A stretch of 64,000 nt of DNA. It comes from Ornithinimicrobium murale (GTDB taxonomy: Bacteria > Actinomycetota > Actinomycetes > Actinomycetales > Dermatophilaceae). The notes under the pieces are model-generated. The model did not search any database. It was not told the DNA's origin and worked only from the letters and a program-made list of their open reading frames with translations. Shown here in pieces: positions 27,916 through 40,874 of the stretch; the first letter of the stretch is position 1, and every line of letters begins with the position of its first letter. A program made the position numbers and the translations under genes. Location of the stretch: assembly GCF_003352835.1 (NCBI RefSeq), contig NZ_QLVD01000001.1:62001-126000 (forward strand), given 5' to 3'.

Positions 27916-27942
27916 GCGCCCACCCTGCCATCCCACCCATTC

Positions 27943-27992
27943 TTGGGGAGGTTCGGACCGGCTCCCACCCATTCTTGGGGAGGTTCGGACCG
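27943..27992 (+). repeat. paired 18-nt intergenic repeat, locus 2
   Basis: TTGGGGAGGTTCGGACCG at 27943-27960 and 27975-27992, inside a 32-base unit that begins CCCACCCATTC and is repeated almost exactly. It lies between the GH63 start and the 3' end of the dioxygenase gene. Confidence 0.92.
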
Positions 27993-28002
27993 GTCGGCGG
28001 CC

Positions 28003-35752: not shown

Positions 35753-38428
35753 ATGAGCCCAGAGTCGAGTTCAGCCGACCAGACCACCCGATACCTCTAC
35801 GACCTCGCCGACGGCGATGCGTCGATGAAGAACCTGCTCGGCGGGAAGGGGGCCAACGTCGCCGAGATGATGCGCCTGGGCGTCCCGGTGCCGGACGGGT
35901 TCACGATCACCACGACCGCGTCCATCGACTCGATGAACGCGGGCGGGGAGTGGCCCGCGACGCTCTGGGACGAGACGCAGGCGGCCCTGGAGCGGCTCGA
36001 GCAACGCACCGGCCGCACGCTGGGCTCCTCCGAGCGCCCGCTGCTGGTCTCCGTCCGCTCCGGCGCCGTCGTGTCGATGCCCGGCATGATGGACACCATC
36101 CTCAACCTCGGCATCAGCGACGACACGGTCGCGGCCCTCGGCGCCGAGGCCGACAACGCCCGCTTCGCCTGGGACTCCTACCGGCGGTTCATCCAGATGT
36201 ACGGCGAGGTCGTCGAGGGAGTCCCGGCCCACGCCTTCGAGGACGAGCTCACCGCGCTCAAGCGCACCCGTGGTGTCGAGCAGGACACCGAGCTGTCCAT
36301 CGAGGACCTCCAGGGACTGGTCGAGAAGTTCAAGGGCGTGGCCCGGGAGCACATGGGTGGTGAGTTCCCGACCGACCCCCGCGAGCAGCTGCAGCGCGCC
36401 ATCGACGCCGTCTTCCGGTCGTGGATGAACCCCCGTGCCGGCGTCTACCGCAAGGCGCACGGCATCCCGGACACCCTGGGCACCGCGGTCAACGTCATGC
36501 AGATGGTCTTCGGCAACCGGGGCGACACCTCCGCCACCGGTGTCTGCTTCACCCGCAACCCCTCCACGGGTGCCCAGGAGCTCTACGGCGAGTTCCTGGT
36601 CAATGCCCAGGGCGAGGACGTCGTCGCGGGCATCCGCACCCCGCGTCCCCTCGCGGAGATGGAGACGGTCCTCCCGGAGGCCTACGGCCAGCTGCTCGAG
36701 ACCATGAAGCGCCTCGAAGGCCACTACGGCGACATGCAGGACATCGAGTTCACGGTCGAGGAGGGCACGCTCTACCTGCTCCAGACCCGCAACGGCAAGC
36801 GCACCGCGCCGGCCGCGTTCAAGGTGGCCCGGGACCTGGTCGAGGAGGGTGTGATCACCCGGGAGCAGGCACTGCGCCGGATCGAGGCCTCCCAGCTCGA
36901 CCAGTTGCTCCACCCGGCCATCGACCCCGAGCACGGCCAGACACCGATCACCAAGGGCCTCAACGCCTCCCCCGGCGCGGCCGTCGGTGAGATCGTCTTC
37001 GACTCCGACACCGCCGAGGCCCGCGGCAAGGCCGGCGAGGCGGTCATCCTGGTGCGCTGGGAGACCACGCCCGACGACATCGCCGGCACCATCGCCGCGC
37101 AAGGCGTGCTGACCGCCCACGGTGGCATGACCTCGCACGCCGCAGTCGTTGCGCGCGGCATGGGCAAGCCCTGCGTGGCCGGTGCCTCGGCCGCCAAGAT
37201 CGACGCGACCGCCAAGACCCTCACCATCGGTGACACTGTGCTCCGTGAGGGCGACACGATCACCCTCGACGGCTCAACCGGCGAGGTGTATGCCGGGGCT
37301 CTGGAGCTCGTGCCACCACAGGTCAACGAGGACTTCTCGGCCGTGGTCGGGTGGGCCGACGAGGTGCGGCGGATGGACGTCCGCGCCAATGCCGACAACG
37401 GCGAGGACGCCGCGCGCGCCCGCGAGTTCGGCGCGCAGGGCATCGGCCTGTGCCGGACCGAGCACATGTTCATGGCCGAGGACCGTCTGCCGGCCGTCCG
37501 CGAGATGATCCTGGCCGGGGACGAGGAGGCCCGCGCCACCGCCCTGGAGAAGATCCTGCCGATGCAGCAGGCCGACTTCGAGGCGATCTTCGAGGCGATG
37601 AGCGGCCTTCCGGTCACCATCCGGCTGCTCGACCCGCCGCTGCACGAGTTTCTGCCCGACCTCGTCGAGCAGGCCCTGACCGTGCAACGGCTGGAGCTGC
37701 AGGGCGGCACGGAGGAGGAGCTGCGCGACGCGCGACTGCTGCTGGCCCAGGTCAAGAAGCTGACCGAGATGAACCCGATGCTCGGCACGCGTGGCGTCCG
37801 CCTGGCGCTGCTCTACCCCGAGATCCCGGCGATGCAGGTGCGCGCCATCGCCCGGGCGGCCTTCGCGGTGCGTGAGCGTGGCGGGGAGCCGATCGTGGAG
37901 ATCATGGTGCCGTTGGTCGCCTTTGCCGAGGAGCTGCGTCGGGTGCGGCAGATCATCGAGGAGACGCTGGCCGAGGAGTTTGCGGCCAGCGGGCAGCAGT
38001 TCGACTACACGGTCGGCACGATGATCGAGCTGCCCCGAGCGGCCGTCGTCGCCGACCAGATCGCCGAGCACGCCGACTTCTTCTCGTTCGGCACCAATGA
38101 CCTCACCCAGACGGGTATCGGCATCTCCCGCGACGACGCGGAGGGGTCGTTCCTGGCGCCGTATGTCGACGACGACATCGTCCCCGAGAACCCGTTCGCC
38201 TCGATCGACGTCGACGGCGTGGGCGGCCTCGTCCGGCTGGGGTCCGAAGGCGGCCGCCGCACGAAGGCCGACCTGAAGCTGGGTGTCTGCGGTGAGCACG
38301 GCGGCGACCCGGCCTCGATCACGCTGTTCGAGTCGATCGGCCTCGACTATGTCTCCTGCTCACCGTTCCGGGTGCCGATCGCGCGCTTCTCCGCCGCCCG
38401 CGCGGTGCTGGACGCCCAGCAGGACTGA
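35753..38428 (+). CDS. ppdK: pyruvate phosphate dikinase
   Basis: An 891-residue enzyme from ATG 35753 after GAGGAGA. The order is an ATP-grasp N-terminal domain (LLGGKGANVAEMMRLGVPVPDGFTIT; RSGAVVSMPGMMDTILNLG), a swivelling His domain with GGMTSHAAVVARGMGKPCV (His about 462, regulatory Thr about 460), and a C-terminal PEP/pyruvate TIM barrel (GLCRTEHMF, GTNDLTQTGIGISRDD, GVCGEHGGDP). It interconverts pyruvate, ATP and Pi with PEP, AMP and PPi at the gluconeogenic node. The preceding gene is its regulator. Confidence 0.98.
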   Translation: MSPESSSADQTTRYLYDLADGDASMKNLLGGKGANVAEMMRLGVPVPDGFTITTTASIDSMNAGGEWPATLWDETQAALERLEQRTGRTLGSSERPLLVSVRSGAVVSMPGMMDTILNLGISDDTVAALGAEADNARFAWDSYRRFIQMYGEVVEGVPAHAFEDELTALKRTRGVEQDTELSIEDLQGLVEKFKGVAREHMGGEFPTDPREQLQRAIDAVFRSWMNPRAGVYRKAHGIPDTLGTAVNVMQMVFGNRGDTSATGVCFTRNPSTGAQELYGEFLVNAQGEDVVAGIRTPRPLAEMETVLPEAYGQLLETMKRLEGHYGDMQDIEFTVEEGTLYLLQTRNGKRTAPAAFKVARDLVEEGVITREQALRRIEASQLDQLLHPAIDPEHGQTPITKGLNASPGAAVGEIVFDSDTAEARGKAGEAVILVRWETTPDDIAGTIAAQGVLTAHGGMTSHAAVVARGMGKPCVAGASAAKIDATAKTLTIGDTVLREGDTITLDGSTGEVYAGALELVPPQVNEDFSAVVGWADEVRRMDVRANADNGEDAARAREFGAQGIGLCRTEHMFMAEDRLPAVREMILAGDEEARATALEKILPMQQADFEAIFEAMSGLPVTIRLLDPPLHEFLPDLVEQALTVQRLELQGGTEEELRDARLLLAQVKKLTEMNPMLGTRGVRLALLYPEIPAMQVRAIARAAFAVRERGGEPIVEIMVPLVAFAEELRRVRQIIEETLAEEFAASGQQFDYTVGTMIELPRAAVVADQIAEHADFFSFGTNDLTQTGIGISRDDAEGSFLAPYVDDDIVPENPFASIDVDGVGGLVRLGSEGGRRTKADLKLGVCGEHGGDPASITLFESIGLDYVSCSPFRVPIARFSAARAVLDAQQD

Positions 38429-38512
38429 CCCGCACCCAGCGAACGGTCACGCCTCATCACCCTCACGGCAGCACGCCTGGCCGCCGAGCTCACCGAGCTC
38501 GGCGGCTTCGCC

Positions 38513-39238
38513 GTGGTGCAGCTCGAGACCGACGGCCTGCTCCCCCTGAGAACCGCTCTGGACGCCGAGCACCTGCAGGAGCGGTTCACCGCCACCCGCG
38601 CCGGGTTGGCCGTCGGCACTGGGCTGCCGGTCGCCGAGGTGCAGCCCAGGACCGCGGTCTCCGCCGCCCAGGTGGGCCTGGTGTCGCGGTTCTGGTCGAT
38701 CGCGCTGGCCGCCGTGGCGCTGCGCGACCGGGTGCCCGACCTGAGCGCCGACCGGATCTGGGTGGATCGGAGCCACCGCAACCCCTCACCGATCGCCGTG
38801 AGCTGGGATGGTCAGCAGGGAGCCGGCCAGCGGGGGGTTGGCCACGCGGTTGACGGGACGACCGAAACGGTGGCCGCGCTGGAGGCACTGGTGGTCCACG
38901 GCGCGGTGGCCGCGGTGACCGACGCGTGCGGCGAGCACGGCCGGACCTCTGCCAACGTGCTCGTCAGCAACGCGGCCTCCAGCCTCTTGGCGGCTGCGCG
39001 GGTGATCGGCCGGCAGGTGCCCGGACGGGCCGAGCACCTCGACCGGGTGGCCCGGGCCCTGCTCACGGTGCCCTTCCTGGCCGCGGGCGGCTCCTTCCGC
39101 TCGTCCGAGGATGACCGGCAGGCCGGCGACCAGTTCCGACGCAACGGCTGCTGCCTGTACTACCGGCTGCCCGGCCACGGCCTCTGCCCGGACTGCGTGC
39201 TGGTGCGCCCCGGGCACCCCGCCGACACCCATCACTGA
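38513..39238 (+). CDS. FhuF-like [2Fe-2S] ferric-reductase family protein
   Basis: 241 residues from GTG 38513 or the next GTG. The frame is open and coding-like back to the ppdK stop in the same frame (LAAELTELGGFA), but no ATG, GTG or TTG exists there, so the N-terminus may start at a non-canonical codon. The C-terminal RNGCCLYYRLPGHGLCPDCVL has the CC-x(10)-C-x2-C arrangement of FhuF proteins, which reduce ferric siderophores in the cytoplasm. The neighbourhood includes an IdeR/DtxR-like box 136 bases past its end. Confidence 0.8.
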   Translation: MVQLETDGLLPLRTALDAEHLQERFTATRAGLAVGTGLPVAEVQPRTAVSAAQVGLVSRFWSIALAAVALRDRVPDLSADRIWVDRSHRNPSPIAVSWDGQQGAGQRGVGHAVDGTTETVAALEALVVHGAVAAVTDACGEHGRTSANVLVSNAASSLLAAARVIGRQVPGRAEHLDRVARALLTVPFLAAGGSFRSSEDDRQAGDQFRRNGCCLYYRLPGHGLCPDCVLVRPGHPADTHH

Positions 39239-39250
39239 CCGGCCGCCGTC

Positions 39251-39327
39251 GTCGAGCAGACGACGCGCACGGTCGAGCAGACGACTCGCACGGTCGAGCA
39301 GAGGACGCCCACGGTCGAGCAGCCCCC
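39251..39327 (+). repeat. 21-nt tandem repeat, 3.5 units
   Basis: Units GTCGAGCAGACGACGCGCACG at 39251-39271, 39272-39292 and 39293-39313 (few changes), then a partial unit from 39314. They lie between the FhuF-like gene and the iron-box hairpin. A 21-base unit equals two helical turns. Confidence 0.9.
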
Positions 39328-39363
39328 CCAGACCCATGCCCGCAACCCTGATCGCGCCAGCAA

Positions 39364-39397
39364 CGCCCGCAGGTGAGGTCAGCCTCACCTGCGGGCG
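39364..39397 (+). terminator. perfect 15-bp hairpin upstream of the small Cys gene
   Basis: CGCCCGCAGGTGAGG (39364-39378) and CCTCACCTGCGGGCG (39383-39397) pair completely around a TCAG loop. It could end transcription of the FhuF-like gene. No T-run follows, and it overlaps the iron-box-like site, so it could equally be an operator or 5' leader structure of the next gene. Confidence 0.6.
39374..39392 (+). promoter_or_regulatory. IdeR/DtxR-like iron box
   Basis: AGGTCAGCCTCACCT at 39376-39390 matches every fixed position of the AGGTnAGnCTnACCT core known for DtxR/IdeR, in a 19-bp window. It lies 18 bases upstream of the GTG start of the 68-residue protein. Part of the match follows from the larger hairpin, so binding is not certain. 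Confidence 0.55.
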
Positions 39398-39409
39398 TAT
39401 TCTGACAAG

Positions 39410-39616
39410 GTGTCGAAGAAGGACAGGGCGCGCAAGGCCAAGAAGGCCACGCGCCGACCCAAGAAGAAGTGCTGTGTCAGCAAGCCCAAGTGCGCACGCT
39501 GCCCACTGCGCATGCTGTCCGACGGCACCCTCCCGGAGGGCTACACCGTCAAGAAGCGCAAGCTCGTCAAGCTCGACGGCGGCAAGCCCAAGGGCAAGCG
39601 TCCGAAGGCCGCCTGA
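39410..39616 (+). CDS. small basic Cys-rich protein
   Basis: 68 residues from GTG 39410 (MSKKDRARKAKKATRRPKKKCCVSKPKCARCPLRMLSDG). The N-terminal 20 residues are almost all Lys/Arg. Four Cys (CC-x5-C-x2-C) could bind zinc or iron. The C-terminus is again Lys-rich. It looks nucleic-acid or ribosome associated and resembles conserved short actinobacterial proteins of unknown function. The site upstream suggests iron control. Confidence 0.75.
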   Translation: MSKKDRARKAKKATRRPKKKCCVSKPKCARCPLRMLSDGTLPEGYTVKKRKLVKLDGGKPKGKRPKAA

Positions 39617-39683
39617 CCCGAGCCGTCGGGCCCCGCAGACGATCAGCGGAGCCGACGATCAGCGGGCACGAAAGCCTGGACGG

Positions 39684-40874
39684 TCAGCGGGCCAGGACCG
39701 TCCCGGTCCGTGTCTCCTGGTCATAGCTGTAGACCTCGCGCCCCTCGATCCACACGCGGAGCGCGCGGGACTGCAGGTCGATCGGGTCGCCGGACCACAG
39801 GACCAGGTCGGCGTCCTTGCCCACAGCCAGCGAGCCGACCCGGTCGGCGACCCCCATCACCTCAGCGGGGTTGATGGTCACCGCTCGCAGCGCCGCGTCC
39901 CGGTCCATACCCTCCTTGATCGCGAGGGCGACCTGGGTGATCAGGTGCTCGATCGGGACGACCGGGTGGTCGGTGATGAGTGAGACACGGACCCCGGCGC
40001 GGTCCAGGATGCCCGGCGCCGCGGCGGTCCGCTGACGAACCTCGACCTTGGAACGGCTGACGATCATCGGGCCGTACAGAACCGGAATCCCCTTCTCTGC
40101 CACCAGATCCGCGACCAGATAGCTCTCGGTGCCGTGGTCCAGCACCAGTTGGTAGCCGAACTCCTCCGCGATCCGGATCGCCGTGGCGATGTCATCGGCC
40201 CGGTGGCAGTGCTGCCGCCACGGGATCTCCCGCTCGAGCACCTGGACGAGCGCCTGGTTGACCAGGTGCCCCTCGGCATACTCACCGTCCTGGGTCGCCT
40301 TGGTCGTCTTCTCCAGGTAGTTGCGTGCCTCGGTGAAGGCCTTCCGCAGGATCAGGGCGACGCCGAGACGCGTGGACGGAGTCTTGTTCTGCTCGCCATA
40401 GACCCGCTTGGGGTTCTCACCGAGCGCCGCCTTGAGGCCGGACGGGCTGCGCAGCACCATCTCATCGACATAGCGACCGTGGGTCTTGAGCGCGACGGTC
40501 AGGCCACCGATGGGGTTACCGGAGCCGGGGTTGACATTGACGGAGGTGATGCCGCCACCGAGTGCGTCGTCAAAACCCTGCTCGCGGGGGTTGATCCCGT
40601 CCAGGGCGCGGGCGGCCGCCATGACCGGATCCGTCATCTCGTTGGTGTCCTGACCGGCCCAGCCCTCACCCTCCTCCCAGACCCCGAGGTGGACGTGCGC
40701 ATCGATCAAGCCGGGCAGCACCCACTGGCCAGCAGCATCGACCACCTCAGCACCCTCCGGGATCGAGACGTCCGTCCCCAGGGCGGTGATCGTGCCGTCC
40801 TCCACGACGACGGTGCCTGCGAACGGGTCACCCTCCACCGGGACGACGTGGGCGTTGGTGATGGCCAGGGTCAT
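39684..40874 (-). CDS. imidazolonepropionase-like amidohydrolase
   Basis: A 396-residue protein from ATG 40874 after GAGGAGG. The metal-dependent hydrolase fold begins GQWVLPGLIDAHVHLGVWEEG with the HxH metal pair. Further ligands fit His in WRQHCHRADDI (about 217), His in LVLDHGTES, and Asp in SLITDHPVVP. The C-terminal ADRVGSLAVGKDADLVLWSGDP is standard. Single-domain, cytoplasmic. Members hydrolyse cyclic amides or dipeptides such as Xaa-Pro or Xaa-Lys; the substrate is not evident. Confidence 0.88.
   Translation of the reverse strand: MTLAITNAHVVPVEGDPFAGTVVVEDGTITALGTDVSIPEGAEVVDAAGQWVLPGLIDAHVHLGVWEEGEGWAGQDTNEMTDPVMAAARALDGINPREQGFDDALGGGITSVNVNPGSGNPIGGLTVALKTHGRYVDEMVLRSPSGLKAALGENPKRVYGEQNKTPSTRLGVALILRKAFTEARNYLEKTTKATQDGEYAEGHLVNQALVQVLEREIPWRQHCHRADDIATAIRIAEEFGYQLVLDHGTESYLVADLVAEKGIPVLYGPMIVSRSKVEVRQRTAAAPGILDRAGVRVSLITDHPVVPIEHLITQVALAIKEGMDRDAALRAVTINPAEVMGVADRVGSLAVGKDADLVLWSGDPIDLQSRALRVWIEGREVYSYDQETRTGTVLAR

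Follow-up and report, generated by a model that had tools for sequence, protein, structure and literature searches.

A conserved, predicted DtxR/IdeR-type iron box before the gene for a small, basic four-cysteine protein with ferritin or FhuF-like neighbours in Actinobacteria

The window (the whole stretch of DNA that was analysed, 64,000 nucleotides from Ornithinimicrobium murale) carries a small gene for a 68-residue basic protein close behind a FhuF-like gene, and between the two lie a tandem repeat, an inverted repeat and an iron box. The features discussed in the text are the following, with positions counted from the first letter of the window.

35753..38428, plus strand: pyruvate phosphate dikinase-like gene (PF01326, PF00391, PF02896), a conserved flank
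38441..39238, plus strand: FhuF-like gene (FhuF_C, PF11575, E = 2.7e-8), in synteny within the genus
39251..39322, plus strand: 21-nt tandem repeat (period 21, 3.4 copies, 92% matches)
39363-39378 and 39383-39398, no strand: perfect 16-bp inverted repeat with a 4-nt loop, overlapping the iron box
39374..39392, no strand: DtxR/IdeR-type iron box TGAGGTCAGCCTCACCTGC, centred 26 nt upstream of the start codon
39398..39403, plus strand: -10-like element TATTCT, read from the sequence, 6 nt before the GTG start
39410..39616, plus strand: small gene (open reading frame, alignment), coding for the 68-aa basic protein with CC-x5-C-x2-C
39684..40874, minus strand: amidohydrolase-family gene (PF01979), a flank in five of six genus members

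The order in the genus is pyruvate phosphate dikinase (PPDK), FhuF-like gene, small gene and then, on the opposite strand, the amidohydrolase, with the single exception of L006. The small gene itself is patchily distributed, being found in six of 31 genomes of the genus. The FhuF-like character of the upstream gene, as originally predicted, is borne out by the FhuF_C match; the siderophore-iron reductase FhuF model TIGR03951 is matched under its cut-off, and the product carries a C-terminal CC-x10-C-x2-C. The 5' end of this gene is irregular: there is no ATG, GTG or TTG between the PPDK stop and the GTG at 38513 (38426-38513), and about 24 residues ahead of that GTG resemble those of relatives, pointing to an unusual start codon, or to damage or misassembly.

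An IdeR/DtxR-like site had been predicted before the small gene, and AGGTCAGCCTCACCT at 39376-39390 does form the core of an iron box. The published DtxR consensus of C. glutamicum, as it stands in the excerpted text of PMC1382209, is a 19-bp palindrome, TTAGGTTAG(G/C)CTAACCTAA. The window 19-mer at 39374-39392 agrees with it at 14 of 19 positions, and retains the core AGG..AGSCT..CCT. A weight matrix of 66 sites, from whose training the window's genus was excluded, scores the window site at 20.1 bits, the highest value in the 64 kb (the runner-up has 10.9 bits). The genome of origin (assembly of 3.29 Mb in 33 contigs, 75% complete) holds 13 occurrences of AGGTNNNSCTNACCT, three of which, the window site among them, fit AGGTNAGSCTNACCT. 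Of the other two, one stands 40 nt upstream of a frame for a siderophore-interacting protein (PF04954, E 4.1e-8), and one directly 5' of an ABC-transporter ATPase (PF00005). The same genome codes for a 266-aa repressor of the IdeR/DtxR type, with the N-terminal (PF01325), metal-binding (PF02742) and SH3-like (PF18357) domains.

Scanning of named genomes identified 168 relatives of the small protein, the best 80 of which were kept; these are mostly from Nocardioides, plus Aeromicrobium, Pimelobacter, Microlunatus, a Klenkia MAG and Ornithinimicrobium. With the window, L004 and L006 they make up a set of 83 upstream regions. L001-L003 and L005 were omitted because their genomes are already represented by the window, L034, L035 and L042. 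The choice of start codons relied on the score of the -10-like element, the box not being used, and is doubtful for L037 and L039. In this set (the best 80 of 168 relatives, plus three) the box is present at 13 or more of 19 positions in 70 of 83 upstream regions and at 14 or more in 57, counts that are not independent events given the many loci with a common gene order that Nocardioides supplies. A score of at least 13/19 was reached by 0.12% of shuffled upstream regions and by none of 1546 random segments. The box is centred 23-33 nt upstream of the start in 68 of these 70 regions; in the remaining two the distance is 9 and 13 nt. The 80 loci (best of 168) together span 628,113 bases and contain 57 sites that score 14/19 or more; these are distributed over 56 loci, and every one stands 5-60 nt before the small gene. 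A second set of 39 loci, comprising 30 strong and nine weaker homologues, shares some species with the first and includes the window as L133; here the box reaches 13/19 in 20 loci, of which 19 belong to the 30 strong homologues (the window among them) and the remaining one, L156, to the nine weaker. Below that score are 13 of the 83 upstream regions in the first set and 19 of the 39 loci in the second.

The site is palindromic, overlaps the promoter as placed from the predicted start (see below), occurs in a genome that encodes a repressor of the matching type and is conserved before orthologues, all of which are among the features by which a DtxR/IdeR operator is recognised. From these comparisons of sequence, regulation of the small gene by IdeR/DtxR in response to iron is very likely. 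A likeness arising by chance inside a GC-rich palindrome might be suggested by the overlap of the box with the perfect inverted repeat, the centres being 2.5 bp apart; this explanation is scarcely credible, however, since the box is also conserved where the genome of the homologue has no such palindrome, and since ten simulated sequences of 64 kb gave no score with the weight matrix that equalled the window site.

Conservation of the site in relatives, named beforehand as a check, is thus widespread, but within the window's genus it extends to only three of the six gene carriers: the window (14/19), F0845 (16/19) and a weak case of 12/19. The other three score 9-10/19, the level of shuffles. 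In L156, which belongs to the window's family, box, small gene and ferritin occur together. We infer an old switch that was lost or changed in part of the window's genus.

The GTG at 39410 is the only fitting start codon between an in-frame stop at 39372 and the cysteine motif. Because the -10-like element is spaced 6 nt from this start, the mRNA of the small gene is probably leaderless. The pattern TAnnnT is found 5-7 nt before the chosen start in 79 of the 80 homologues (best 80 of 168), a figure that follows in part from the way in which starts were chosen. Relative to the predicted leaderless start, the iron box would span about -36 to -18. The region upstream of the small gene had been described as a leader; given the promoter spacing this is probably the wrong word, as the hairpin would precede the start of transcription, and would therefore act as DNA or on read-through from fhuF.

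The other two elements of the intergenic region had been proposed as parts of the same switch. Both exist: the tandem repeat occupies 39251-39322 in 3.4 copies, as first described, and the hairpin is a perfect inverted repeat, with a stem of 16 bp rather than the 15 bp originally given. The 21-nt unit was not found in L002-L006, where the best match is 14-15 of 21 (a value taken without a shuffled control), and its exact 14-mer GTCGAGCAGACGAC occurs in no second place in its own genome. As it was not found in L002-L006, a role for the tandem repeat in a conserved switch was rejected. Short GACGATCAGCGG-like repeats at 39640-39690, 3' of the small gene, resemble the 21-nt repeat in style, and elsewhere in the window, at 27931-27993, a perfect 32-bp unit stands in two tandem copies.

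The inverted repeat is the longest in the window among repeats with loops of 3-8 nt, compared to a maximum of 12 bp in five simulated sequences of 64 kb, and its predicted RNA fold (39363-39398) is highly stable, at -39 kcal/mol with z = -6.95. This stability, together with the position downstream of fhuF, would suit an intrinsic terminator or attenuator, that is, a regulatory element in its own right. However, only the GC-rich hairpin part of an intrinsic terminator is present, as no T-run follows it and the terminator scan has no entry there. The hairpin has no match in Rfam at the gathering threshold and no counterpart in the other 82 upstream regions, where the longest inverted repeat is 10 bp, and a conserved RNA element was therefore rejected. 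Since transcription of the small gene also probably starts downstream of the hairpin, the regulatory role is highly unlikely. The hairpin is probably a local extra, which may terminate fhuF transcripts or extend the operator, and both it and the 21-nt repeat look incidental to the iron switch. Of the local iron switch as originally conceived, the predicted operator before an unrecognised, iron-linked protein is retained, and the tandem repeat and hairpin, which were not found in the relatives compared, are not supported as its parts.

The 68-aa protein is, as predicted, basic and cysteine-containing, with 18 lysines, eight arginines, four cysteines and a pI of 10.8. In an alignment of the window protein with 79 of the 80 named homologues (best of 168; L037 was left out), C20, C21, C27 and C30 (the first residue uncounted) are invariant, placing four cysteines within 11 residues as CC-x5-C-x2-C. 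The positions kept in at least 90% of the alignment read PKxxCCxSxxxxxCxRCPLRMLxxGTLPxGYTVxxRxLV, with one x fewer where the spacing is CC-x5-C. Across the 80 homologues (best of 168) the pI ranges from 10.1 to 11.3 and the length from 56 to 105 aa, and the ends are rich in lysine, with tails of variable length. In the homologue at L042:4010-4294, from the same genome as L005, the C-terminal tail is a long KHKGTKHKGAKHKG-type repeat.

The protein passes no family cut-off in Pfam or NCBIfam, in keeping with its original description as unrecognised, and its gene neighbours in the family are ferritin or the FhuF-like gene. A sequence search of the PDB returned no matching chain, so that homology to any PDB chain was rejected; homology to the cluster loops of EndIII/MutY was likewise set aside, as PF10576 is matched under its cut-off (E 0.16). 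In the AlphaFold model (mean pLDDT 67.8; 72 over residues 21-30 and 83-84 over 31-50) the cysteine stretch is followed by a helix (31-37) and a beta hairpin (44-53). Fold searches with this model gave a best Foldseek E of 4.0, and no Z of 2 or more by VIA-align among 23 chains. No publication on the small gene was found in the open-access literature, judged by titles and the openings of abstracts, which is not proof of its absence from print. As far as these tools show, the protein belongs to an undescribed, iron-linked small family. Five genomes of one other genus (L149-L153) encode a shorter, divergent KPKKKCCRSKPRCKRCP-type protein, with neither an iron box nor a ferritin within the locus; in at least four of the five its gene adjoins a GTPase frame, which we take to be TypA/BipA-like.

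A ferritin gene lies near the small gene in 64 of the 80 named loci (best of 168), 57 times downstream in the same direction and seven times divergently. In the second set it accompanies 22 of the 30 strong homologues (12 in the same direction, 10 divergent) and two of the nine weak ones (L156, same direction, and L118, convergent). Part of this linkage is one inherited gene order, since a methylmalonyl-CoA mutase-like gene (PF01642), the commonest neighbour in L036-L113, is found in 73 of 88 loci compared to 65 of 88 for ferritin. The divergent and convergent arrangements, together with L156, nevertheless argue for a linkage that goes beyond a single inherited order. L118:1440-1710 encodes a distant relative from the same phylum (MPPGRCCRSTPRCRRCPL...); its ATG is preceded by a box-like GGTTAGGTATCCCTAA (12/19), and the convergent ferritin gene lies beside it. 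The ferritin of L047 carries PF00210; among solved structures it is nearest to BfrB (3qd8, E 1.6e-40), which we take to be the M. tuberculosis protein. Ferritins of the BfrB type are called Ftn in the consulted part of a review (PMC7762939).

In the window's genus the neighbour of the small gene is the FhuF-like gene and not a ferritin. The ferritin query found none in the window's own, 75% complete genome, and in the genus ferritin occurs in four of the six genomes with the small gene and in six of the 25 without it, a weak co-occurrence.

Our preferred explanation, which we hold at a probability of roughly one half for the whole, is that the small gene codes for an IdeR-repressed starvation protein that mobilises iron in the manner of Bfd. 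Positions 39374-39409 would form a DtxR/IdeR-repressed promoter, in which iron-loaded IdeR would occupy the box over the -35/spacer region and block transcription when iron is present. When iron is short the small gene would be released, giving a probably leaderless mRNA and from it the 68-aa basic four-cysteine protein. The cysteines may hold a small Fe-S centre or iron, and the protein could give electrons to, or take iron from, the adjoining non-haem-type ferritin, in whose place a FhuF-type ferric reductase stands in the window's genus. Its overall role would be that of a Bfd-like helper of iron mobilisation under starvation, without being itself a Bfd. We propose this on the precedent of Bfd, on the FhuF-like motif and on the small number of short Bfd frames: in a search for Fer2_BFD that covered 29 of the 44 genomes with the small gene, 19 of the 29 have a match, and in only two is the frame shorter than 200 aa. 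Because short frames are rare (frame length being a rough guide in GC-rich DNA), a stand-alone Bfd seems to be absent from most carriers of the gene. As it is read from sequence and gene context, the biochemical role is tentative.

The same iron switch could serve proteins of other kinds. A nucleic-acid-binding or regulatory peptide that spares iron in the manner of Fbp, with the cysteine group as a zinc or iron site, would suit the high pI of the 80 homologues (best of 168) and their variable lysine-rich tails, and would agree with the placement of distant, box-less relatives beside a GTPase that looks like TypA/BipA. Small basic proteins with a part in iron sparing are already on record. Basic patches would, however, also be expected of a protein that docks on an acidic ferritin cage, and the adjacency to ferritin in several arrangements favours iron storage over general regulation, making such a peptide rather unlikely. 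If it were correct, the gene would represent a protein-based iron-sparing factor in Actinobacteria. A cytosolic chaperone or buffer of iron or zinc that does no redox work is distinctly unlikely; four invariant cysteines in 11 residues and iron-gene neighbours fit it and nothing specific speaks against it, but the vicinal CC recalls the cluster ligands of FhuF.

As a small family with a conserved, predicted starvation switch and a repeated linkage to ferritin, the Bfd-like helper that we prefer is a candidate for iron release from non-haem ferritin, a process that to our knowledge is less well understood than the Bfd-driven release from bacterioferritin. A more specific form of this proposal is possible but doubtful: the CC-x5-C-x2-C proteins would be an undescribed, IdeR-repressed family that supplies the missing reductant or iron-release factor of BfrB/Ftn-type actinobacterial ferritins, a short look-alike of the FhuF 2Fe-2S site and the non-haem counterpart of Bfd. 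With the box, the IdeR/DtxR regulon predicted for Nocardioides and its relatives gains a gene that lacks annotation.

Among known systems, the Fbp proteins take part in the iron-sparing response of Bacillus and are small and basic. The 68-aa family is like them in size, in charge and, by prediction, in being iron-repressed, and unlike them in its four conserved cysteines and its linkage to ferritin. The systems of DtxR in C. glutamicum, IdeR in M. tuberculosis and DmdR1 in S. coelicolor are alike in consensus, promoter position, type of repressor and surrounding iron genes; they differ in that the small gene does not figure among the targets described for C. glutamicum and S. coelicolor in the portions of the regulon studies at hand. 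In the S. coelicolor DmdR1 study Bfd is named next to a putative DmdR1 site, as is a protein with a FhuF-type motif; the small family is not named in the part consulted (PMC12161575).

FhuF binds its 2Fe-2S cluster through CC-x10-C-x2-C (PMC8068687, excerpt). The 68-aa protein likewise has a vicinal CC followed by C-x2-C, and in the genus its gene lies next to a FhuF-like one (PF11575). In contrast to FhuF, it has x5 in place of x10, is far smaller and has no profile similarity, and homology was rejected at an hhalign probability of 0.2%.

Bfd is small and basic. The 68-aa family shares these properties, has four cysteines, lies beside an iron store in most relatives and is predicted to be switched on at low iron. 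It is unlike Bfd (PF04324) in its CC-x5-C-x2-C spacing, and Fer2_BFD gave no match to the 68-aa protein in a Pfam scan at E<=1; moreover, the neighbour in its relatives is a BfrB/Ftn-type ferritin and not a haem Bfr. The small gene has a ferritin neighbour in those 64 of the 80 loci (best of 168), but not in the window's own genus. Bfd is described, in the consulted part of the review cited above (PMC7762939), as a small 2Fe-2S protein whose gene often lies next to bfr yet is expressed differently, and which is thought to deliver the electrons that release stored iron.
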